From: Symmachiella macrocystis
Lineage (GTDB): Bacteria > Planctomycetota > Planctomycetia > Planctomycetales > Planctomycetaceae
DNA length: 64,000 nucleotides
NCBI RefSeq assembly: GCF_007860075.1
Contig: NZ_SJPP01000001.1
Location: 124,001-188,000 of the forward strand
Direction of reading: 5' to 3'
In this document: positions 1,191 to 17,364 of the stretch, one piece after another
Position numbering within the stretch: the first letter of the stretch is position 1
Layout of the letters: each line of letters opens with the position of its first letter
Notes under the pieces: generated by a model
Databases searched by the model: none
What the model was told of the DNA's origin: nothing
What the model saw: only the letters and a program-made list of their open reading frames with translations
Position numbers and translations under genes: made by a program

Positions 1191-4100
1191 ATGCACACAA
1201 TCCCTCGCCCCGGAATTTGGTTTGTTCTCGCCGCCTGTACTGGCTTGCTAGCAGCCACCGATCTCTCGGCTGCCGAACCCGAGGTCGATTTCAATCGCGA
1301 CGTGCGGTCGGTCTTTTCCAATATCTGCTTTGAATGCCACGGACCCGATGGCAATCAGCGGCAGACCGATTGGCGGCTGGACACCCAAGAGGGGGCATTC
1401 GGTGAACTTAGTGACGGTGAATTCGCGATCGTTCCCGGCAAGAGCAGCGAAAGTCAACTCTTCCAACGCATCTCCTCGAAAGACCCCGCCCTGCAGATGC
1501 CGCCGGAGGACTTTGCCAAACAACTCAAGCCGGAACAAATTGAATCCATCAAAAAATGGATCGACCAAGGCGCCGAGTGGCGGGGCCATTGGTCGTTCGA
1601 TGCGCCCCAACAACCGGCCGTTCCCGCTGTCGAACACCAAGCAGCAGTCAAAAACCCAATCGACAACTTCGTCGTCGCCCGACTGGAAACCGAAGGACTC
1701 ACCCCCGCTCCCGAAGCCGCCAAGGAGACGCTGATCCGTCGCGTCACCTTTGACCTGACGGGTCTACCACCCACAATTGCCGAACTCGATGCGTTTCTCG
1801 CTGATGATTCGCCGAACGCCTATGAGAAAGTCGTCGACCGGTTATTAGCGTCGCCCCGCTACGGTGAACACTTAGGCCGGTTTTGGCTCGATGCGGCGCG
1901 GTATGGCGATACCCACGGTTTGCATCTCGACAACGAACGATCGCTGTGGCCCTATCGCGATTGGGTCATCAACGCCTTCAATGACAACATGCCGTTTGAC
2001 CAATTCACCGTCGAACAACTCGCCGGCGATTTGCTCCCTGAAGCGACGATGTCGCAAAAGATCGCCACCGGTTTCAACCGCTGCAACGTCACCACCAGCG
2101 AAGGGGGATCGATTGCCGAGGAATACCGCGTTCGCTACGCCGTCGATCGGGTGGAAACACTTTCAACAGTCTGGATGGGCATGACACTGGGCTGCGCGGT
2201 TTGTCACGATCACAAATTCGATCCATTCACGCAAAAAGAGTTCTATCAACTCTTCGCTTATTACAACAACATCGACGAAAACCCGATGGATGGCAACGCC
2301 CTGTTGCCGCCGCCGGTTATGAAGGTTCCCACACCGGATCAAATGGCGCGGCAAACGGAGTTGGATGCGGCGATTGCTGAGAAAAAAGCGTTGGTCGACG
2401 GTCCGCTGCCCGAAGTCGATTCCGCTCAAACCGTCTGGGAAACCGAGTGGAGCGAACAACTCCGCGACCGTTGGCAGATGTTGAACCCGCAACAATTCAC
2501 CTCATCCGGCGGTTCAACACTGAGCTCATTAGAGGACTCATCCGTCTTAGCCAGCGGCGAGAACCCCGCTAAAGATGACTACGAAATCATCACGCAAATC
2601 GAGACACCAGGGATCACCGCGATACGTTTGGAAGCATTGACTCATGAGAGTTTGGCCGACAACGGTCCCGGCCGCGCGGGCAACGGAAACTTTCTGCTCA
2701 CCGAATTCGAAGCCGAGATCGCGCCGGTCAGCGATCCGGAAAAATTCCAACCGATTAAATTCGCCAAGGCTCTGGCCGACTTTTCGCAGGCCGATGGCAA
2801 ATATTTCATTGCCAAGGCAATCGATGGCGACTTCGGCGACGACAATGGCTGGGCGGTCGATGGCGGCAAGCGGCACGAAGACCGCACCGCCTTTTTCCTG
2901 CCGACTGAACCGTTCGGTTTCGCAGGCGGCACGATTCTCAAAATCAAATTGAAGCAACAATCGAAGTGGGACAACCATGCCATCGGACGCTTCCGTCTCT
3001 CCATCACCGACGATGGCGCGGTCCTGCCCGCCAAGGTCGAGGACTGGCATTTGGCTGGACCCTTTGAAGCTGAAAGCGGCAAGGCAGCCTTCGAGACGGC
3101 TTACCCCCCTGAATCCGCAGTCGACCTGACAGCGAAATATAACGAGGACAAAATCGCCTGGGCCAGCCGCCCTAAATTCAAAGACGGGAAATCCCACCGG
3201 CTTGAGGGGACCAACTGCGCGACCTACCTGTACCGCACCATCGATGCACCGTCACCCCGCCGCGCGACCTTCCGACTCGGCAGCGACGATGGGATCAAGA
3301 TGTGGGTCAACGGTCAGGAAGTCTTAGCCCATGATGTCCAACGCACCGTCGCCCCCGACCAAGAACGCGTCACAGTCGACCTGAAACAAGGCAAAAACGA
3401 AATCCTGCTTAAAGTCGTCAACTACGGATCGCGGCACGAATTCTACTTCGACAAGACCATCGAAAACGCCAACTCCGAAGTCCTACAAATTACCCCCATA
3501 TTGGCGAAGTCCGCTGAGAGTCGTAGCGATGACGAAAAGAAACAACTGCGCGACTACTTCCGTCGCAATTCTTCGCCTGAGTGGCAACAATTGAGCGACG
3601 AACTGGCGAAGTTGAACCAAGAACGCAAAACGCTCGTCGATGCCATTCCCGCCACAATGATCATGAAAGACCGCGACGAACCGCGGGATTGTTTTGTTCT
3701 CGAGCGAGGCGAATACACCAAACCAGGCGAAAAGGTCGAAATGGGTGTCCCCGCCTCAATGCCGCCGCTGCCGGAAAACGCCCCCAAAAACAGGCTGGCC
3801 TTGGCGCAATGGTTGGTTGCCCCCGAGCATCCGCTCACCGCGCGGGTCACGGTCAATCGCTATTGGCAACATTTCTTCGGCACCGGTATCGTCAAAACGG
3901 CCGAAGACTTCGGCTCGCAAGGCGAATGGCCCTCCCATCCGCGGTTGCTCGATTGGCTCGCCACCGAGTTCATTGGGACGGGTTGGGATGTCAAACGGAT
4001 GCAGAAGTTAATTGTGATGTCCGGCACTTACCGCCAATCATCAAATATCACCCCCGAGTCGCACGCCCACGATCCGCAAAACCGGTTGTTGGCCCGCGGA

Positions 4101-4739
4101 CCGCGATTCCGCCTCGACGCCGAAATGCTGCGTGACAATGCGTTATTCCTGAGCGGCACAATCGTCGAAAAAGTCGGCGGCAAAAGCGTCCGCCCCTATC
4201 AACCAGCCGGCATTTGGAAAGCGGTCGGCTATTCGGGAAGTAACACGGTGAACTTTGTCCGCGACAATGGCGACAAATTGTATCGCCGGAGCTTGTACAT
4301 TTTTTGGAAACGAACAGCCCCGCCACCATCGATGATCACCTTCGATGCTCCGTCCCGCGAATCGTGCACCGTCCGCCGCGCGCGAACCAACACACCGTTG
4401 CAAGCGCTGGTGCTGCTCAACGACGAACAATACGTCGAAGCGGCCCGGAAATTCGCCGAGCGGATCATGACTGAAGGGGGGACAGACGCCAAGTCGCGAA
4501 TCGAATTCGCCTTCCGCGCCGCCACCGCACGGCACCCCAACAAGGACGAAGCCCAACTTTTCCTAGATCTCTATAACGAACAATTGGCCACGTATCAGCA
4601 AGACAGTGAAGCGGCGGAAAAACTTCTATCAGTCGGCGAAGCTCCGCGGAAGCCCCAGCTCAACCCCGCCCAACTCGCCGCCTGGACGATCATCGCCAAC
4701 ACAATCCTGAACCTCAATGAAACGCTCACCAAAGGCTGA
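1191..4739 (+). CDS. Planctomycete-type cytochrome c / DUF1549 / DUF1553 (PSD1) secreted protein
   Basis: A large secreted protein of about 1182 residues. The N-terminus is a signal peptide (GIWFVLAACTGLLAA), followed by a C-x-x-C-H haem motif (CFECH, near residue 46) in the Planctomycete cytochrome C domain, then DUF1549. A second CxxCH (CAVCH) lies near residue 335. About residues 617-755 look like a PA14-like beta-sandwich insertion (RLGSDDGIKMWVNG), and the C-terminal third is DUF1553, with RVTVNRYWQHFFGTG and TPLQALVLLND. These proteins are greatly expanded in Planctomycetota and are usually paired with DUF1501 proteins, as here. Their biochemical role is not established; electron transfer or polysaccharide turnover has been proposed. 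ATG 1191 is preferred over an in-frame TTG 12 bases upstream. Confidence 0.93.
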   Translation: MHTIPRPGIWFVLAACTGLLAATDLSAAEPEVDFNRDVRSVFSNICFECHGPDGNQRQTDWRLDTQEGAFGELSDGEFAIVPGKSSESQLFQRISSKDPALQMPPEDFAKQLKPEQIESIKKWIDQGAEWRGHWSFDAPQQPAVPAVEHQAAVKNPIDNFVVARLETEGLTPAPEAAKETLIRRVTFDLTGLPPTIAELDAFLADDSPNAYEKVVDRLLASPRYGEHLGRFWLDAARYGDTHGLHLDNERSLWPYRDWVINAFNDNMPFDQFTVEQLAGDLLPEATMSQKIATGFNRCNVTTSEGGSIAEEYRVRYAVDRVETLSTVWMGMTLGCAVCHDHKFDPFTQKEFYQLFAYYNNIDENPMDGNALLPPPVMKVPTPDQMARQTELDAAIAEKKALVDGPLPEVDSAQTVWETEWSEQLRDRWQMLNPQQFTSSGGSTLSSLEDSSVLASGENPAKDDYEIITQIETPGITAIRLEALTHESLADNGPGRAGNGNFLLTEFEAEIAPVSDPEKFQPIKFAKALADFSQADGKYFIAKAIDGDFGDDNGWAVDGGKRHEDRTAFFLPTEPFGFAGGTILKIKLKQQSKWDNHAIGRFRLSITDDGAVLPAKVEDWHLAGPFEAESGKAAFETAYPPESAVDLTAKYNEDKIAWASRPKFKDGKSHRLEGTNCATYLYRTIDAPSPRRATFRLGSDDGIKMWVNGQEVLAHDVQRTVAPDQERVTVDLKQGKNEILLKVVNYGSRHEFYFDKTIENANSEVLQITPILAKSAESRSDDEKKQLRDYFRRNSSPEWQQLSDELAKLNQERKTLVDAIPATMIMKDRDEPRDCFVLERGEYTKPGEKVEMGVPASMPPLPENAPKNRLALAQWLVAPEHPLTARVTVNRYWQHFFGTGIVKTAEDFGSQGEWPSHPRLLDWLATEFIGTGWDVKRMQKLIVMSGTYRQSSNITPESHAHDPQNRLLARGPRFRLDAEMLRDNALFLSGTIVEKVGGKSVRPYQPAGIWKAVGYSGSNTVNFVRDNGDKLYRRSLYIFWKRTAPPPSMITFDAPSRESCTVRRARTNTPLQALVLLNDEQYVEAARKFAERIMTEGGTDAKSRIEFAFRAATARHPNKDEAQLFLDLYNEQLATYQQDSEAAEKLLSVGEAPRKPQLNPAQLAAWTIIANTILNLNETLTKG

Positions 4740-4803
4740 TCCAAAACCACACGCGCCCTCAGCCTCCGGTTCTTCCGGGGAAAACCTGACGCATCGGGGA
4801 TAA

Positions 4804-6273
4804 ATGATGAACAACATATTCGACCCACATCTGTTACAAACCCGCCGGCATTTTTTCGGACGGACCGCTACGGGAATCGGGACAGCCGCTTTGGCGTCGA
4901 CGTTAAATCCGGAGCTGTTCGGTGCTCCGACATCGGCCACCGAAACAGCCGACCACGGTGTGCTTGGCCAACCGCATTTTCCCGCCAAGGCCAAACGGGT
5001 CATCTACTTGTTCATGTCGGGCGCTCCCTCGCAATTGGACATGTACGACTACAAGCCGAACATGGCTGAGATGTTCGACAAGGATCTGCCCGATTCGGTC
5101 CGCAAAGGGCAGCGGATCACCACCATGACCTCGGGTCAAAAGCGATTGCCCATCGCCCCGACGCTGTTCAATTTCAAACAACATGGCCAATCGGGCGCGT
5201 GGATTAGCGAATTGTTGCCGCACACCGCCAAAATGGTCGATGACATGGCGATCATCAAGACCGTCAACACCGAAGCCATCAACCACGACCCGGCGATCAC
5301 CTACATTCAAACCGGCGCGCAACTTCCCGGACGTCCCAGCATGGGCGCGTGGCTGTCCTATGGTCTGGGCGAGTCGTCACGGAATTTACCCAGCTTCGTG
5401 GTGCTACATTCATCATGGAGTGCGAAACGCGATGCACAAGCCCTGTATGCCCGCTTGTGGGGCGCGGGTTGGTTGCCATCTCGCTTCCAAGGCGTGAGCC
5501 TGCGTTCGCAAGGCGATCCTGTGTTGTATTTGTCGAACCCTCCCGGCGTCTCTCCGGATGTGCGTCGGAACATGCTCGATACGCTCGCCAAATTGAATGA
5601 ACAACAATTCGCCGCTGTCGGGGATCCGGAAATCAATGCTCGTATTGCGCAATACGAAATGGCCTACAAAATGCAGACGTCGGTTCCCGAATTGACCGAC
5701 ATCTCCGGCGAAACCCAGGCCACGCTCGATATGTACGGTCCCGATGTCCACAAGCCGGGCACATTCGCAGCCAACTGTTTATTGGCTCGTCGACTCGCGG
5801 AACGTAATGTCCGCTTCGTGCAAGTCTTCATTCGAGGTTGGGACCAACATGGCAGCCTGCCCAAAGATATTCGTTCACAATGCGGCGATGTCGACCAAGG
5901 CAGTGCGGCTCTGCTCAAAGACCTCAAACAACGCGGCATGCTGGATGATACTTTGGTCATCTGGGGCGGCGAATTCGGCCGCACGGTCTATTGCCAAGGC
6001 ACTTTGACCAAAACCAACTACGGCCGCGACCATCACCCCCGCTGCTTCACGGTCTGGATGGCCGGCGGCGGCGTCAAACCGGGCATCGTCTACGGCGAAA
6101 CCGATGATTTCAGCTACAACGTCGTCGAAAATCCTGTGCACATCCACGATCTCAATGCCACCATTTTGCATTGCCTGGGCATCAACCACGAACGACTGAC
6201 GCACCGCTTCCAAGGCCGCGATTTTCGCCTGACCGACATTCACGGTCGGGTTGTTCATGAAATCTTGGCATAA
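4804..6273 (+). CDS. DUF1501 domain-containing protein, Tat-exported
   Basis: This 489-residue protein has a twin-arginine export signal (RRHFFGR at residues 14-20, then a small-residue hydrophobic stretch). The body is the DUF1501 alkaline-phosphatase/sulfatase-like fold: [20 protein letters not shown] near residue 65, repeated Asp/His motifs, and GGEFGRTVY followed by [17 protein letters not shown]. Family members are almost always encoded directly downstream of DUF1549/DUF1553 cytochrome proteins. Here the gap is 64 bases with no terminator, so the pair is probably one operon and the products probably act together in the periplasm. The substrate is unknown. The sequence shows no truncation. 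Confidence 0.94.
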
Positions 6274-6463
6274 GAGTTGCACAATACGCCTTCCCCCGAA
6301 ACCAGCCGGGGACGCAATTTGCGAATCGTCCGGTTTCCCGCCGAAGATCAGCGAAACCAATCCCCCCGAGCGGTGTTTATAGTTTTGCTGAGTGCGTAAA
6401 AGATTAGCAACTCATCGATACGAACGAGCAATTGTTCGTCATTGATGTCCAGGAGTGTCGGTC

Positions 6464-7192
6464 GTGTCTAAGTCAGCAAAATTCAAATTTCCTGCGATCA
6501 GTCTGCGCGCGCTGCTGATTAGCGGCATCACTGCCTTTGTCTTCGGTCTTGGCTTGAAGTCCTGCGCACCCTATTTTATTGAACAACGCGTCGTCGCCAA
6601 GATCGAGCAGTTGGGTGGTTCCGCGGAAACCACAATGATGCGTCCCTGTTGGATCCCCGACGCAATCCATGACGACTACCTAACATTGTTCGAACGGGTG
6701 GTTCGCGTAGAGCTAAATGGCCCCCGCATTGGAGACGAACATTTACAACAGCTCCAACTCTTTGAGCATCTGCAAAATTTGTCATTGGCACAAACCCGTA
6801 TCAGCGACGAGGGACTCGCCCACCTACGTGAATTGCCAAAGCTGGAAGGACTCAATCTGCGGCTCACACAAATCACGAACGCGGGATTGCGGCAATTGCA
6901 AGAGTTGACAAACCTTACCTATCTCGTGCTCGATGCCACGCGTGTCAGCGATGCGGGGCTTGCCTTCCTTGGTGATATGCCTCGTTTGCAATTTCTCTCA
7001 CTGCGTTCGACGCTGATCAGCCAAGCGGGTTTGAAGAGTTATCAACAAACCGCCCAGATGCTGACAGATCCGATCTACTCCCCACAAACCAGGCAAGACC
7101 CCGCCTGGCCGGCCTCCAAGAAAGCAGCGTCTCAACTCAACATGATGCCGCTCCCCCCCGCTTTGAAGCCGACTCCGGACCCGAGTCTTTGA
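6464..7192 (+). CDS. leucine-rich-repeat protein with N-terminal membrane anchor
   Basis: The protein has about 242 residues, with one N-terminal hydrophobic helix at about residues 12-30 (LRALLISGITAFVFGLG). About five leucine-rich repeats follow, of the form ISDEGLAHLRELPKLEGLNL, in roughly residues 85-190. The last 30 residues are a Pro-rich tail. GTG at 6464 is chosen because AGGAG at 6451-6455 sits eight bases before it; an earlier in-frame GTG at 6455 overlaps that site. LRR proteins of this RNI-like type are common in Planctomycetota and are thought to mediate protein contacts. The partner is unknown. The gene stands alone, 190 bases after the DUF1501 gene. Confidence 0.8.
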   Translation: MSKSAKFKFPAISLRALLISGITAFVFGLGLKSCAPYFIEQRVVAKIEQLGGSAETTMMRPCWIPDAIHDDYLTLFERVVRVELNGPRIGDEHLQQLQLFEHLQNLSLAQTRISDEGLAHLRELPKLEGLNLRLTQITNAGLRQLQELTNLTYLVLDATRVSDAGLAFLGDMPRLQFLSLRSTLISQAGLKSYQQTAQMLTDPIYSPQTRQDPAWPASKKAASQLNMMPLPPALKPTPDPSL

Positions 7193-7384
7193 CGCAAAGC
7201 GGCCTCCGCAAAAATCGCGCGGGCTCGCTTGTCTCAAAATCGGCCTTTCCTCAATTCGCTCTCCCCGTTACACTTCGCGACCACATGTGCAGCACCCAAG
7301 GAATGGGTGCCCGGCGAGTTTACAGCCATTGATGCCCCCAAACCCGCCCACTACGCCGATAACGAAAGGGAGTTCGATTTATCG

Positions 7385-8704
7385 ATGCAGCCGTTTCGAT
7401 TCATTCATGCCGCCAACCTGTTACTGGACCACCAACTCCAACAGATCGACTACGCTGATCCGCACTTATGTGCCATCGCCGAAGACAGCACCCTCGCCGC
7501 GTTCCGCCAACTGGTGCGGACCGCTGTCGATGAACAAGCCGACTTTCTGTTGTTGACCGGAAACTGTTTTGACGCGGCCGACCAATGTCTGCTTGCCGAA
7601 ATCGCCTTGCTCCGCGGCCTTGAGGAATTAGACGAACAGGGGATTGACGTCTACATCGTCCCCGGCCAGACCGACCCTGCCGCCTGTTGGTCGTCGTTAC
7701 CGCCGCTTCCAAACAACACCACGATCTTGAGCGGCGAACGCCCCCTGTCGATCACGCGCGATGAAACCGTGATCGCCACCATTCATCCGTCGGCCAATAA
7801 GATCCGTACGACCACCGACGCCCCGTTCCCCATCGCGTTTCGTCAACACGAAGACTTCTTTCCGCCCATCGCGCGGCAGTTTGAGGAAGAACGCATTGAT
7901 GGGCCGACAACCGAATACGAATTGGTCTCCAACGACGTTCGACCTGCACTAGACACGAAATCATCAGCAAGTCCAGAATTCAACGAAAACCTTGTCCGCT
8001 ATTGGGTTCTGAATGCTGGCCCTGCGCGGCGAACCGTCTATGCGGAAAAAGCCGTCGCGCATCACCCCGGTGGAACGCAAGGCATCGCTCCCGCGCAGTC
8101 CGGACAGCACGGTTGTACGCTGGTCGAAGTCGACACAACCGGCAGCATAGAACTGACCTTCGTGCCGACGGCTGCTGTGCGTTTTGAAACTCTTGAGATA
8201 AACGTCCACCCCCACACCGACCGCGACGAATTACTGACTTCACTCACCACAGCGGTCGCCGCCGTCCATCGACATCCCTCAGAAACGGCTTGGCTGTTGT
8301 CCTGGCAAGTCCGCGGATACGGCCATGGTCGCGATTTATTGGCCGACAGCGATTTCCAACACGACATCGACGAGCACCTCCGGACGCATTTCCACGACCG
8401 CGATATTTACATTCGCAGTTTGGGAATCACATCGTCGGACGACGCCGCGTCGATTCTGGAATCGGCCCCTCAAGAAGAATTGGCCGCCGAATATTGGACC
8501 GCATTGACCCGTCCCCAACCGGCAACGGTTTCCGACACAGATGCTGACGAAGAGGCTCCACCGGAATTGCCGGTTATCTCGGGCGGAATGTGGGAGACAC
8601 AACTGCGAGAATTAGAAAAAACCTTCAGCGACGGCGACCTGCTTGACCAAGCAGCGGCGCTGGGACGCGAATGGTTCGTGGAACAGACGGAGGAGTCGGC
8701 ATGA
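7385..8704 (+). CDS. YhaO/SbcD-like metallophosphoesterase-fold protein with degenerate catalytic motifs
   Basis: About 439 residues that begin like Mre11/SbcD/YhaO nucleases (FRFIHAANLLLD). Every metal-site motif is altered. The D-x-H of motif I reads N-L-L (residues 10-12), GDxxD reads GNCFD (59-63), GNHD reads GQTD (94-97), and the late GHxH region reads NAGP near 210-213. The surrounding scaffold, such as VPG, YWVLN and HHPGGTQGI, is preserved. The protein therefore probably cannot bind two manganese ions and may act as a structural partner of the ATPase encoded next to it. ATG 7385 is preferred because homologues start this way and GGGAG lies 12 bases before it; an in-frame TTG at 7229 would add 52 residues unlike the family. 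The stop overlaps the next start (ATGA). Confidence 0.8.
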   Translation: MQPFRFIHAANLLLDHQLQQIDYADPHLCAIAEDSTLAAFRQLVRTAVDEQADFLLLTGNCFDAADQCLLAEIALLRGLEELDEQGIDVYIVPGQTDPAACWSSLPPLPNNTTILSGERPLSITRDETVIATIHPSANKIRTTTDAPFPIAFRQHEDFFPPIARQFEEERIDGPTTEYELVSNDVRPALDTKSSASPEFNENLVRYWVLNAGPARRTVYAEKAVAHHPGGTQGIAPAQSGQHGCTLVEVDTTGSIELTFVPTAAVRFETLEINVHPHTDRDELLTSLTTAVAAVHRHPSETAWLLSWQVRGYGHGRDLLADSDFQHDIDEHLRTHFHDRDIYIRSLGITSSDDAASILESAPQEELAAEYWTALTRPQPATVSDTDADEEAPPELPVISGGMWETQLRELEKTFSDGDLLDQAAALGREWFVEQTEESA

Positions 8705-11700
8705 AGATCACAGACATTTCGATCGATCATTGCGGCGTGTGGCACAACTTAAATCTGCCACTGAGCGACCCGGGAATGAGCGTCTTTTATGGCCCCAACG
8801 AAGCGGGCAAGTCGACGCTCATGCGCTTCGTGCGCGGCATGCTGTACGACTTCAAAAGCAGCGGGCTGGGCGATCCCGGTGGGCAGTCGGAGCTAAATAA
8901 TGTTGCCGGCTCACTCACGCTTTCCACCGAAAGCGGATCCTATCGCATTGAACGCCGTTACACACAAGGCGTCGAAAATGCCGTCACGATCATCGGCCCC
9001 CATGGCGACCGTGTCGATCGCGATGAATTCGTAGAATTATTAGGCGGCGTGGACCAAGAAGTTTTCCACCGCGTCTTCGCTGTCGGGCTACGCGAGTTGC
9101 AAAAACTAGCGTCGCTCCATGAAGATCAAGTCGCTGAGAAAATCTACGGCTTAACGCTCGGACCGCAAAGCCAACGGATATTGCACGCGCTGGACGACAT
9201 CGACAACAAATCACGAAAACTGATCGGGGCCAATCCGCAACACGGTCGCCTGCCGGAACTATTTGGCGAACGGGACCGCCTCAAAGCCGAACTCGATGCA
9301 CTGGCGGGACTCAAAGACCGCCATCGAGAATTGTCCGACTCGCAACGAAAGTTGCAAGGCGAAATCGATGACATCAACGCCCGCCAAGAGGGGATCGAAT
9401 CGCAACTCCGCGGCCATTTGTATATGCAACGGGCCTATGCCCCCTGGAATCGTGTACGCGCAGTGGAAGACGAATTGTCGCAACTTCCCGTTGTGGACAG
9501 TTTTCCTGAAAACGGTATCGAACGGTTGGACGAAATCGAACTCCAACTCGCCGAAGCGGCCGAAAAACGCGACCGATTAAAAAAACAAGCCAAGCACCAC
9601 TTGGAACAAGCCGCCACGTTCGGCGGCAACAAAGACATCGCCAAATACGAAGTCACGCTGCAAGGTTTGGTCGACCAACGCGACTGGATCGCCGAACTGG
9701 AACAGCAGATTTCCCATGCGCAATCCAAATATGATAACCTGGAAAAGCAAGTCCTGGAACGCCAACCGCAATGGGGCGAAGGACATATTGCCGACCCTGC
9801 CACTGAGTTCGACACCAGCCCCAACGCCTACGCGCGGCTAGTGAGCACGGCCCGCGCCTTCAAACGTGTTGTCGCTCGCCGTGAAAAAACCAAACGGCGG
9901 GCAAAACGACTCAATAAGTTGTGCCAGTCGCAACAGGAAAAACTCGTTGCGGGATTGAGCCGGTATCGCGTCGATTCGGCGCAAGACGCACTGCTAGTCG
10001 TCCGCGAACGGCTCACCAATATGGAGACGCTGGGAGAGCTTAAACTCAACGAGCGCGAACTGCACAAGCGGCAACTCAGCTTCGACGAATTACGAGAACA
10101 TACCGAAATCCGCTTAGCCCTGCCGGCCAGTTACTACATTTGCACCTGGGCCGTTACCGCATGCGGCGTGTTGTCGATTCTGGTCGGGGCCTTCCAAGGC
10201 GTGACTAACCAAATGACCATCGGCGCTGTGTTCGCACTGATCGGTTGTATGTTGGTGATGCTCAGCCGTTTGGCCAAACACCATTTCGAACAAGGCGTCG
10301 ATCATCGCTTAGAGGAAATCTCATTAGCGGCCGATCAAAACTTTGAAGAGCTGCGTCGTGTCCGCGAAGAAATCCTCGAGGTGCTTGGTGATTCTCCCGG
10401 CAAAGCCGATGACGGAAACTGGTTGCCCGAGGCGGAGGAGATGCGGAGTTGCGCGCGAGAAATCGCCGATTTGGAACGCTTGGCGGTTTCGGAACGCAAA
10501 CTCGAACGAAATCGCCAACGCTTGGAAAACGCCAACAACGCCATTTACGAATCGCAACGCAATGTCGCCGGGACGCGGCAGAGCTGGCAACAACTGCTCT
10601 CGCAACTCGGACTGCCTGAAACATTGGACGTGAATGAAGCCTTTACCATTTGGCAATCGCTCGTCGAGTTGTCTCACGATCGCCATAAATTTCGCATTGC
10701 CAAAATCGAACTCAAAAGCCGCCGGCAAATGTATACGTCGTTCTGTCGCCGTATCGCCGCCGTCGGTCGCCGCATGCACGAATGGGAACACAACTTTGAT
10801 CAACCCTTGGTCGTTTTGGACCATTGGGAAGCACAGCTCAAAGCACTGCACGGGGGTCGCGACGAACGTCGCCGTCTCCGCCGCGAAGCCCGCGACCTAG
10901 CCCGCACCGCCGCCGAATGTCGCGCTGCGGTCCAAGACTACAAAAATCAACGCGCCGCCCTGCTCCGCGAAGCGGGTGCTACGGACCGCGAAGACTTTGA
11001 ATTACGGTCACAAGCATTGTCCCGCCGCATTTTACTAGAGCGCCAACTCCAACAAGCCAACGAAGATCTGCGAACAGCCGGCGAAAGCGATCACGAACTC
11101 GCCGTCACCGAAGAAGACTTAGAATTGTTCGATGCCGCCCACAATACGGAATGCATTGACCTGTTAAAGATGGAACAAGAAGACCTGCGAAACGACCTGC
11201 AGGAGGCCTACAAAAACCAAGGCAGTCTCCGCCGAGAATTGGAGGTCATCGAAGCCGACCAACAATCGCGACATCTTCGCCGGGAAATCGCGCAAGTTCA
11301 ACAACGTATCCACACCGCTGGGGCGGAATGGTTCGCTCTGCAGCGTGCCAAGCTCGCCGTCGAACAGATGCGGCACCATGTCGAACGCACCCGGCAACCG
11401 GTCACCATCGCCGACGCATCGCGCTACCTCACACGCATTACCTGCGGCAAGTACCGCAACATCTGGACCCCGCTCGGCAAACGCAGCCTTCGGATCGACG
11501 ACGAACATGGCCATAGCCTCTCCGTCGAAAGCCTCAGCAGCGGCACGCGGGAACAATTGTTCCTGGCGATACGCATGGCGTTGATTCATGATTACGCCCG
11601 CCACGGCGTCACGCTGCCGATGGTCCTGGACGACGTGCTGGTGAACTTCGACGAAAATCGCACCGAAGCCGCCCTCGAAGCCCTCTCCGACTTTTCCCGG

Positions 11701-11817
11701 CAAGGCCACCAAGTGCTGATGTTCACCTGCCATCGCCACTTGGCACACATGGCAAAGACCAAAGGCTGCGAACCCATCTGGCTCCCCAGCCGCACTGACA
11801 CCGCCGAAGCCGCATAG
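8701..11817 (+). CDS. YhaN/SbcC/Rad50-like coiled-coil ABC ATPase with central membrane segments
   Basis: About 1038 residues. Walker A is GPNEAGKST at residues 31-39. Two long coiled-coil arms are rich in Glu, Arg and Gln. The ABC signature LSSGTREQL lies near 946, and Walker B (MVLDDVLVNFDE) near 973. In the middle, about residues 477-525, are two hydrophobic helices (YYICTWAVTACGVLSILVG and IGAVFALIGCMLVML), a feature of YhaN-type proteins that suggests membrane attachment where SbcC has its hinge. The ATG overlaps the upstream stop and is preceded by GGAGG, so the two proteins are translationally coupled and probably form a complex. Known relatives act in DNA end processing; here the partner nuclease looks inactive. 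The downstream region holds a hairpin repeat. Confidence 0.88.
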   Translation: MKITDISIDHCGVWHNLNLPLSDPGMSVFYGPNEAGKSTLMRFVRGMLYDFKSSGLGDPGGQSELNNVAGSLTLSTESGSYRIERRYTQGVENAVTIIGPHGDRVDRDEFVELLGGVDQEVFHRVFAVGLRELQKLASLHEDQVAEKIYGLTLGPQSQRILHALDDIDNKSRKLIGANPQHGRLPELFGERDRLKAELDALAGLKDRHRELSDSQRKLQGEIDDINARQEGIESQLRGHLYMQRAYAPWNRVRAVEDELSQLPVVDSFPENGIERLDEIELQLAEAAEKRDRLKKQAKHHLEQAATFGGNKDIAKYEVTLQGLVDQRDWIAELEQQISHAQSKYDNLEKQVLERQPQWGEGHIADPATEFDTSPNAYARLVSTARAFKRVVARREKTKRRAKRLNKLCQSQQEKLVAGLSRYRVDSAQDALLVVRERLTNMETLGELKLNERELHKRQLSFDELREHTEIRLALPASYYICTWAVTACGVLSILVGAFQGVTNQMTIGAVFALIGCMLVMLSRLAKHHFEQGVDHRLEEISLAADQNFEELRRVREEILEVLGDSPGKADDGNWLPEAEEMRSCAREIADLERLAVSERKLERNRQRLENANNAIYESQRNVAGTRQSWQQLLSQLGLPETLDVNEAFTIWQSLVELSHDRHKFRIAKIELKSRRQMYTSFCRRIAAVGRRMHEWEHNFDQPLVVLDHWEAQLKALHGGRDERRRLRREARDLARTAAECRAAVQDYKNQRAALLREAGATDREDFELRSQALSRRILLERQLQQANEDLRTAGESDHELAVTEEDLELFDAAHNTECIDLLKMEQEDLRNDLQEAYKNQGSLRRELEVIEADQQSRHLRREIAQVQQRIHTAGAEWFALQRAKLAVEQMRHHVERTRQPVTIADASRYLTRITCGKYRNIWTPLGKRSLRIDDEHGHSLSVESLSSGTREQLFLAIRMALIHDYARHGVTLPMVLDDVLVNFDENRTEAALEALSDFSRQGHQVLMFTCHRHLAHMAKTKGCEPIWLPSRTDTAEAA

Positions 11818-14906: not shown

Positions 14907-14940
14907 TATAAAATTGAATGCGTGACTTGTGACCGGTCAC
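14907..14940 (+). promoter_or_regulatory. possible promoter -10 box followed by a 12-base palindrome
   Basis: In the 465-base divergent gap (14569-15033), TATAAAA at 14907-14913 is followed by the perfect palindrome GTGACCGGTCAC at 14929-14940. The palindrome is nested in a larger GCGTGAC/GTCACGC inverted repeat. Together they could be a -10 element and an operator for the secreted Arg/Gly-rich protein starting at 15034. No clear -35 box was found. The rest of the gap shows no gene I can support. Confidence 0.35.
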
Positions 14941-15033
14941 GCGCACGAGAAGCGACTGAGTTACGGGGGTTGCCAGTCTTCACTATTCCATTGTCTTGAG
15001 AATTTCGAATTCTCTAGCGGAGGCTGCAGCGCG

Positions 15034-17364
15034 ATGAAACCTTTCACTATTGCTCTGACGTTATTGTTTTTAATTACGGTCACGACCGAAGAGGCTTTCA
15101 GCCAACGTGGTGGGGGTCGAGGGGGTGGTGGCCGCGGCGGAGGCGGTGCTAGCCGAGGTGGCGGCGGATCACGCGGGGGCGGCTTTCGAGGCGGAGGAGG
15201 TTCACGCGGCGGCTTTAGTCGTGGAGGTTCGAGAGGCGGATCGCGCGGTGGCATTAGCAGAGGTTCGCGCGGTGGATCGCGTGGCGGCTTTAGCGGTGGA
15301 TCGCGTGGCGGATCACGTGGCGGTTTCTCCGGTGGCTCACGCGGTCGGTCCAGTGGCGGATCACGGGGTGGCTTCTCCGGCAGAAGTTCGCGCGGAAGTT
15401 CCTCGCGTGGTTTTTCCAGCCGCAGTCCTTCGCGCGGCGGTACGTCCAGCCGCAGTTTTAGCTCACGTGGTCGATCAGGTGGCAGTACCGCCCGCAGCGG
15501 CGGATCCAGCCGCAGTCGCGCCGGAAGCAGTCCGCGCAGAGCCGGAATCAGCGGCAGTCGTCGTGGTGGTGGCACTTCACCACGTGGCTCAATAACGATG
15601 CGTCCTGGAAGTCGTGGCAATATCAATTCCGGTGGACGCGGTGGAATCCGCGGTGGCGTGACTGCCCCCGGTGGTAGACGTTCGATCGCAGGCCCAGGCA
15701 GTCGCGGCGGCCGTGGTAACGCAGGCCCAGGCGGCAGTCGCGGTGGTCGCGGTAACGCAGGCCCAGGCGGCGGTCGTGGTGGTCGTGGTAACGCAGGCCC
15801 AGGTGGTGGTCGTGGGAATCAAATTGCAGGCAGCGGAAGACGTGGCGGGCCAGGCGGCAACTCCTCCTATTACCGTGGTGGAAATCGCTCCGGAAACCGA
15901 GGTGGTTATAATCGTGGCCGCGGCGGTTACGGTAAGGGGCGTTACGGCCGAGGTGGTTATGGCTGGCGTGGTTATGGATATGGCCGACGTGGATACGGTC
16001 GTTATGGCTACGGCCGTAGGGGCTATTACGGATACTATGGCAATTGGCTCTTCGGTTTTTGGGGACTCCCCTGGTACTCCAGAGGCTATGGCTATGGAGG
16101 TGGGTACGGCTATGGCTACCCCTACTACTCAGCCTATACCGATTGGGGCTACCCATCCTACTATTCGAATCCCTATTACGTAGCCGTCGATAATTCCGTC
16201 GTCGACTACTCACAACTACTCGCCGAACCCGCCGAAGAATCGGCGTCGGATGCTGGCCTGCAAAGCTTCGACGATGCTCGTGCTGCCTTTAAGCAAGGGG
16301 ATTACACCCGGGCAATGCAATTGGTCGATAGCGCGCTGGTGACCATGCCGTTGGACAGTGTGTTGCACGAATTCCGCGCCTTGATTCTGTTTGCGCAAGG
16401 CAATTACGAGGAAGCCGCATCGGTGCTACATCCCGTTTTGTCAGCCGGCCCCGGTTGGAACTGGTCGACGTTGCTGGGACTGTACACCAATGTCGACGTC
16501 TATACACAACAACTGCGCGCCTTGGAGAAATACCGCAACGATCACAAGCAATCGGCACTCGTCCGTTTCTTGTTGGGGTACCAGTATTTGACCTGTGGTC
16601 ACAACACGGCAGCGGCCGACGAATTTGCCAAGGCGGTCGCACTCCAACCCGATGATCAACTGTCACGTAACTTGTATCAGCAACTCACGGGCGAAAACCT
16701 ACCAGCTGCAACAAAGGATCCAGCCCCCGTCGCCAACGACGATGCGCCGGGCGAATTTACAAAACCAATCGTCGTTCCTCCTGGGGACGCTGAGGAACCG
16801 GAGGTGAAACAACCTCCCACCCCTCCTGCGGCAGAAGAATTCAAACCACAGTCGCCGACTGCGGAAGAACAACCTTCCGACAAACAACCCATGTTAGAAG
16901 CGCCCGCCGACGCCCAGCCGCAAGCACCGCAGTCGGACGACGCTCAACCGGACGCTTCACAACCTGACGCAACCGAGGAGCCGAAACCGGAACAGCCCGC
17001 TGCCGATGCGCCGGACGAATCGACACCAGCCACGAAGGAGGACCAACCCGATCCGGCAGTCCCTCAGGCCGCTCCCAAAGCGGATTTGAAGAAATATGTG
17101 GGAACCTGGAAGTCGGTCAGCGAAGACAATATGAAGTTTGAGTTAACGCTGACCGACAAGGGAACCTTCACCTGGGTTTATACAGCCAAAGGAGAAACCC
17201 ATAAATTCAGCGGTGAATACGTGATTGGCAACGGATTGCTGACGCTGGCACGGCCTGATCACAACGCCCTGGTCGGTCGACTCAAATGGGTCGACGACAA
17301 AAGTTTCAACTTCAAAATCGTAGGTGGCGGCGATGAAGATTCTGGACTGACGTTCAAAAAATAA
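15034..17364 (+). CDS. secreted Arg/Gly/Ser-rich TPR protein with C-terminal lipocalin-like domain
   Basis: About 776 residues. A signal peptide (FTIALTLLFLITVTTEEAFS) is followed by roughly 300 residues of Gly/Arg/Ser repeats (RGGGG, SRGG, GNAGPGG). A Tyr/Gly/Arg segment (GYGYG, RRGYGRYG) comes next. After it is a TPR domain at about residues 405-555 (FDDARAAFKQGDYTRAMQLV), then a Pro/Glu/Ala linker of about 130 residues. The last 90 residues (KYVGTWKSVSEDNMKFELTL) form a small beta-barrel-like domain. ATG 15034 is chosen because GGAGG lies ten bases before it and a signal peptide begins there; the frame is open upstream. The basic region is likely to bind polyanions or self-associate at the cell surface. 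A terminator follows. The exact function is unknown. Confidence 0.82.
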   Translation: MKPFTIALTLLFLITVTTEEAFSQRGGGRGGGGRGGGGASRGGGGSRGGGFRGGGGSRGGFSRGGSRGGSRGGISRGSRGGSRGGFSGGSRGGSRGGFSGGSRGRSSGGSRGGFSGRSSRGSSSRGFSSRSPSRGGTSSRSFSSRGRSGGSTARSGGSSRSRAGSSPRRAGISGSRRGGGTSPRGSITMRPGSRGNINSGGRGGIRGGVTAPGGRRSIAGPGSRGGRGNAGPGGSRGGRGNAGPGGGRGGRGNAGPGGGRGNQIAGSGRRGGPGGNSSYYRGGNRSGNRGGYNRGRGGYGKGRYGRGGYGWRGYGYGRRGYGRYGYGRRGYYGYYGNWLFGFWGLPWYSRGYGYGGGYGYGYPYYSAYTDWGYPSYYSNPYYVAVDNSVVDYSQLLAEPAEESASDAGLQSFDDARAAFKQGDYTRAMQLVDSALVTMPLDSVLHEFRALILFAQGNYEEAASVLHPVLSAGPGWNWSTLLGLYTNVDVYTQQLRALEKYRNDHKQSALVRFLLGYQYLTCGHNTAAADEFAKAVALQPDDQLSRNLYQQLTGENLPAATKDPAPVANDDAPGEFTKPIVVPPGDAEEPEVKQPPTPPAAEEFKPQSPTAEEQPSDKQPMLEAPADAQPQAPQSDDAQPDASQPDATEEPKPEQPAADAPDESTPATKEDQPDPAVPQAAPKADLKKYVGTWKSVSEDNMKFELTLTDKGTFTWVYTAKGETHKFSGEYVIGNGLLTLARPDHNALVGRLKWVDDKSFNFKIVGGGDEDSGLTFKK
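15685..15822 (+). repeat. 36-base tandem coding repeat
   Basis: Within the Arg/Gly-rich gene, a 36-base unit encoding GNAGPGGxRGGR is repeated in near-identical copies beginning at 15715, 15751 and 15787, with a shorter variant before them. The period is an exact multiple of three, and the unit is in frame with the protein. Copy number may vary between strains by slippage. Confidence 0.8.

Follow-up and report, generated by a model that had tools for sequence, protein, structure and literature searches.

Known complexes and the D/N gene pair

Gene pairs of the YhaO/YhaN type, such as Bacillus YhaO/YhaN, occur in their intact form in Planctomycetota, Chloroflexi, Nitrospirae and archaea. A related pair has been identified in a stretch of 64,000 nucleotides of the Symmachiella macrocystis genome (contig NZ_SJPP01000001.1, positions 124,001 to 188,000, forward strand), hereafter called the window. 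The nuclease-type subunit and its ATPase partner are denominated D and N, genes and proteins alike, and D proteins are classed by their metal site as dead, half-site or intact. The window pair resembles YhaO/YhaN in gene order, coupling, fold and the presence of an ATPase of the AAA_27 kind, and most non-planctomycete members of the type also feature a membrane hairpin. The difference lies in the active site, as intact members have 8/8 metal/catalytic positions and window D has 0/8. The Mre11 fold with its capping domain, the Rad50-like head motifs and a predicted C-terminal helix-loop-helix are shared with SbcCD and Mre11-Rad50, but the window pair lacks both the metal site and the CxxC zinc hook, and carries a membrane hairpin in the middle of the coiled coil. 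D and N belong to the Mre11-Rad50/YhaO-YhaN kind by fold, partner and ancestry; membership among the nucleases fails on the ligand set. D/N is probably a membrane-anchored complex of the Mre11/Rad50 type, in which a pseudonuclease Mre11-like subunit serves as scaffold. No published description of these pairs was found among open-licence PMC papers.

Phosphoesterase folds that have lost activity are known from other systems. The B-subunits of eukaryotic replicative DNA polymerases contain an inactivated Mre11-like phosphoesterase domain (PMC7544198, PMC10721889). They resemble D in that the fold has been retained, without its active site, as a scaffold, and the Pfam model DNA_pol_E_B matches D below threshold, a hit reflecting the common fold. 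In contrast to D, to which they are not orthologous, B-subunits are eukaryotic, have a polymerase partner and include an OB domain. VPS29, a component of retromer, likewise has a phosphoesterase fold devoid of phosphatase activity, and provides a scaffold for interactions (PMC7539009, with its reference 67). It differs from D because its partner is VPS35, and it has neither capping domain nor ATPase partner.

D (439 aa, 7385-8704) and N (1038 aa, 8701-11817) are encoded, as all the features of the pair described below, on the + strand. The ATG of N overlaps the TGA of D (ATGA, 8701-8704), and the translational coupling noted in a preliminary description of the window, made by reading the sequence, is thus found at these positions.

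Metal site and fold of D

The ligand set of two-metal phosphoesterases, DxH, D, N, H and HxH plus a catalytic histidine following the asparagine, has been listed for PolD, and ligands of this type are stated to be conserved in E. coli Mre11 (PMC10721889). Eight columns have been scored accordingly, with the intact relatives as reference (D8, H10, D49, N84, H85, H173, H206, H208). These positions read DHDNHHHH in 28/28 intact proteins, and NLNQTQAP in window D. D8, H10, D49 and H208 are presumably ligands of one metal, and D49, N84, H173 and H206 of the other, as in the sites of Mre11 and purple acid phosphatases.

Individual motifs have been read by aligning D with intact YhaO-type paralogues from the same bacterial family. 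The former DxH is found in HAANLLLD (7406-7429), where D is changed to N11 and H to L13; GDxxD has become GNCFD (7559-7573, D to N60); GNHD has become GQTD (7664-7675), with N replaced by Q95 and the catalytic H by T96; and GHxH has become NAGP (8012-8023, H to A211 and H to P213). The alignment bears out all four losses listed in the preliminary description and reveals a fifth, not named there. The histidine of motif IV (GLLHT) corresponds to Q154 (7844-7846), though the alignment is less certain here and the next residue is a histidine. Asp97, which persists in D, is a scaffold residue present also in intact members.

No Pfam model matches D above its cut-off, and the NCBIfam models of Mre11/SbcD are reached only far below theirs (20 bits for TIGR00619, the cut-off of which is 77.65). 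A sub-threshold Pfam match to RuBisCO_large was put down to chance. The relationship is evident at the level of structure. An AlphaFold2 model of D, built from 59 sequences, has a mean pLDDT (predicted local distance difference test) of 81.7, with values >85 across most of residues 1-140 and 200-350. In the PDB it matches Mre11 and SbcD chains best (Foldseek E 6e-12), and the match, at Z 20-22, extends over residues 1-355 and takes in the nuclease domain along with the capping domain. D is therefore, in its modelled fold, a protein of the Mre11 type. The landmarks previously noted in the sequence (HAAxLLLD, VPG, YWVLN, PGGTQG) are all present, and the model agrees with the YhaO/SbcD-like fold deduced from them. 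The capping domain, recognized from the model, the structural match and the alignment, spans residues about 266-352 (8180-8440) and includes a tryptophan, W307, invariant in the dead clade. In the predicted secondary structure a C-terminal helix-loop-helix (residues 402-438, 8588-8698) lies where Mre11 has its Rad50-binding domain. It is modelled at lower confidence (pLDDT about 63-72), and would plausibly bind the Rad50-like partner.

Conservation of the loss in the dead clade

Homologues have been gathered from relatives, from the whole phylum and from a genome collection, in which the ATPase was used as bait because the clade alignment is too variable for a direct scan with peptide patterns. 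Named records in the dead clade include Fuerstiella, Schlesneria, Planctomyces and Alienimonas. All the 63 members inspected keep 0-2 of the 8 ligand positions. A recent mutation confined to window D is therefore ruled out, every close relative being dead too, and no close homologue with intact motifs was found in the clade. The columns corresponding to N84, H85, H173, H206 and H208 are at the 66th-94th percentile of entropy. By contrast, scaffold positions common to intact members are retained (H8, D15, G59, D97, P109, R266), and W307, W102, P109 and R266 are conserved. The Pfam Metallophos model finds only 1/30 dead-clade members at E <= 0.01, and annotation pipelines miss D for this reason.

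As judged from conservation, no alternative set of Asp, His, Asn, Glu or Cys residues able to rebuild a two-metal site is found in the dead clade. This bears on the hypothesis that D still cuts nucleic acids, with an active site that binds one metal or has been rebuilt in some other way. In its favour, the dead clade conserves His8, Asp15 and Asp97, but intact members conserve these residues as well, and there they are outside the ligand set. At only two positions, 226 (87%) and 344 (76%), is a histidine conserved in dead members but not in intact ones; the second is an arginine in window D.

The half-site sister clade and the order of losses

Further evidence on residual cutting comes from a sister clade made up mostly of Pirellulales, with records from Rhodopirellula, Stieleria, Adhaeretor, Mariniblastus and Thermoguttaceae. 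Half-site D proteins keep D8 in 46/47, H10 in 42/47, D49 in 40/47 and H208 in 36/47 members. H206 is replaced by glycine in all 47, N84 and H85 are replaced by highly variable residues, and GHxH and GNHD have consequently become GGxH and GGxxD. By the established chemistry of two-metal sites, the retained residues would bind one metal, the ligands of the second and the catalytic histidine having been lost. Half-site proteins (loci L091-L157) may be a one-metal phosphoesterase family of their own. The model of a Rhodopirellula baltica record has a pLDDT of 88.9 and is Mre11-like, with Z up to 23.9. A putative one-metal site in the sister clade is an argument for residual cutting by D, but all four of these residues are lost in the dead clade, where no newly conserved residue replaces them, and the position of catalytic His85 is lost in both clades. 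Residual cutting is thus quite unlikely.

Independent further losses are found within the half-site clade, in the lineages of L101, L106, L109, L119 and L149, and in copies from termite-gut planctomycetes. In four of the latter (L112, L115, L118, L138) the N gene has no adjacent D. Loss of D, first suspected at L112, was rejected, because D lies elsewhere in the genome, on another contig, in 3/4 genomes; it was not found in the fourth, which is incomplete. The relocated copies show additional ligand losses, and read DHNKLVGP, DNNKSVGP and NHDEFNGN at the eight positions.

A mixture-model tree of 63 ATPases places dead, half-site and intact types each on one side of a branch (support 100/100/100). 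The same split was obtained with D (95/100/100) after removal of the ligand columns and of two columns on either side of them. Both trees were obtained by quick search, and their deep branching order is less sure than the three-way split. Intact YhaO-type pairs fall outside both the dead and the half-site clades and, with these pairs taken as outgroup, the simplest reading is that catalytic and second-metal residues were lost once, before the two clades diverged from each other, and first-metal residues later, in the Planctomycetales branch. Among dead D proteins the H206 position is most often occupied by glycine (19/63), which fits a first step of loss shared with the half-site clade.

Prevalence and selective constraint

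To estimate prevalence, 120 genomes have been drawn evenly from the family; counts were made by hand from tables, and most copies are classed by score rather than by reading motifs. D of the dead type is found in 104/120 genomes (E <= 1.7e-66), and the intact type in 49/120 (E <= 1e-90). D and N are adjacent and on the same strand, with D upstream, in 121/121 loci where both were found. The preliminary description had assumed a conserved complex, and these figures agree with it.

Comparison with the nearest species gives dN/dS values of 0.134 (D) and 0.051 (N). When the identity of D is divided by that of N, the mean ratio is 1.61 for intact pairs, 1.04 for half-site ones and 0.77 for dead ones. 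By this measure constraint has shifted from the nuclease to the ATPase, D being better conserved than N when intact, equally conserved when half-site, and less conserved when dead. Motif loss, and the faster evolution of D relative to N, are what one would expect if the D gene were functionless and decaying. This is hardly conceivable. The dN/dS value and the prevalence of dead-type D rule out a pseudogene, an open reading frame is kept in nearly all relatives, W307, W102, P109 and R266 are conserved, and D is retained even where unlinked from the N gene, as in the three termite-gut genomes.

Genomes hosting both types raise the question whether dead D modulates an intact YhaO/YhaN or SbcCD, by entering a mixed complex with the active paralogue. 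The 49 genomes with an intact-type subunit would allow it, but more than half of the family genomes have no recognizable intact type. The genome hosting the window is among these, and has the dead type only. It contains no SbcD above the family cut-off, and no Mre11, SbcD or YhaO with an intact motif set has been recognized in the assembly, which is 96.6% complete. This genome may lack an active nuclease of the Mre11 type altogether. Dead D, moreover, has its own co-evolving ATPase encoded directly downstream. A mixed complex is accordingly judged unlikely.

The ATPase and its putative membrane hairpin

N matches Pfam AAA_27 (E 3.4e-13) and, as anticipated in the preliminary description, is an intact YhaN-like ATPase. 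ABC-type motifs are found at the two ends of the coiled coil: Walker A (GPNEAGKS, residues 31-38, 8791-8814), the signature (LSSGTREQ, residues 945-952, 11533-11556) and Walker B (MVLDDVLVNFD, residues 974-984, 11620-11652). No CxxC zinc hook is present in window N. The middle of the protein features instead a putative membrane hairpin of two hydrophobic helices (residues about 477-526, 10129-10278), recognized by hydropathy, the start of which (LPxW) is conserved in the alignment. At least one helix exceeds the hydropathy threshold in 49/50 partners of dead D and in 47/47 partners of half-site D. Of the intact pairs, those from archaea, Chloroflexi and others have the hairpin; the canonical paralogues of planctomycetes that were checked (L067, L072-L074, L076) do not. 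Walker A and Walker B are far apart in the chain of N, one towards each end, and have to come together in a single head. The two coiled-coil arms would therefore share one side of the membrane, an arrangement compatible with an even number of membrane helices.

One locus of the same family, L069, hosts an intact 8/8 YhaO-type pair (D 6028-7308, N 2819-6022, both on the - strand) whose ATPase, in contrast to those of the other canonical planctomycete pairs, has a membrane hairpin. This pair groups with archaeal and Chloroflexi pairs, and was perhaps acquired by transfer.

N also matches weakly the PADLOC models LmuB (E 1.2e-8) and mad3. LmuB of Lamassu is, as N, a Rad50-like coiled-coil ATPase, and D/N could in principle be a defence or DNA-sensing system of this type, with an effector set off by the ATPase. 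Such matches, however, are given by any Rad50-like ATPase. The window pair lacks a LmuA effector, N is longer than LmuB and has a membrane hairpin, and the locus is not a mobile defence locus. No effector gene has been recognized beside D/N in the window, nor is an effector or third gene conserved at dead- and half-site loci. Defence systems are patchy, and D/N is nearly universal in the family. A Lamassu-type function is on these grounds very unlikely.

Recurrent neighbours of D/N loci are common planctomycete genes, varying in side and strand. A protein with leucine-rich repeats, hydrophobic over an N-terminal stretch, is encoded shortly before D in the window (6455-7192, +). A protein of 811 aa (14929-17364, +) features a long low-complexity region rich in Gly, Arg and Ser, followed by a stretch that by eye is tetratricopeptide-like.

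A possible role for the D/N complex

Non-nucleolytic action of D/N is well supported by the data, and assembly as in Mre11-Rad50 and insertion into the membrane are plausible. In the mechanism proposed, long coiled coils would carry two ATP-gated heads at their cytoplasmic end, and their apex would be a two-helix membrane hairpin in place of the zinc hook. Metal-free D would sit on the ATPase heads as a dimerising scaffold, a cap and a regulated surface, without cutting. Binding and hydrolysis of ATP would drive the opening and closing of a clamp on a ligand. More speculatively, the ligand could be chromosomal DNA, and the nucleoid would be tethered or organised at the membrane; tethering of DNA is suggested by the history of the family.

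Several points weigh against the proposal of a membrane-anchored complex with a pseudonuclease scaffold. The hairpin is predicted from hydropathy only, and the metal pocket has been judged from alignment and conservation rather than from atomic coordinates; the pair is known from sequence and a model. No third gene that could act as a functional partner is conserved nearby. D is acidic (pI 4.5), which disfavours binding of DNA by this subunit; intact relatives are acidic too, and the isoelectric point fails to distinguish dead from intact D. Of the preliminary description, the fold, the loss of the metal site, the hairpin-bearing ATPase and the conserved complex are supported. For the role in DNA or envelope organisation proposed there, neither a third gene with conserved linkage nor a phenotype or a publication was found that would bear on it.

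The acidic nature of D and the conserved hairpin of N are also compatible with a role in the envelope and not on DNA. N would pull on the membrane or sense it, and the pocket of the pseudo-phosphoesterase would bind a protein partner, for which VPS29 is a precedent. Nothing specific points to such a role, and the closest relatives of D and N act on DNA. It is the less probable reading, though still a live one. If the membrane-anchored scaffold complex is instead extended to a cellular function, it can be tentatively proposed that in Planctomycetia a Mre11-Rad50 complex has been converted stepwise into a near-universal, ATP-driven clamp, anchored to the membrane, that tethers and organises the nucleoid, or other cargo, there. 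This is possible rather than probable. If true, it would be to our knowledge the first natural Mre11-Rad50 family working wholly without nuclease activity.

The conservation of D/N points to a job, other than cutting, still needed by nearly all these bacteria. In model organisms it is difficult to tell cutting apart from the nuclease-independent roles of Mre11-Rad50, such as end tethering, signalling and clamping. With D/N, a natural series is available across a whole bacterial order, consisting of a dead clade, a half-site intermediate and, in some of the same genomes, intact paralogues as controls. In planctomycetes, which have a condensed nucleoid and membrane folds, D/N is put forward as a candidate organiser of membrane and nucleoid.
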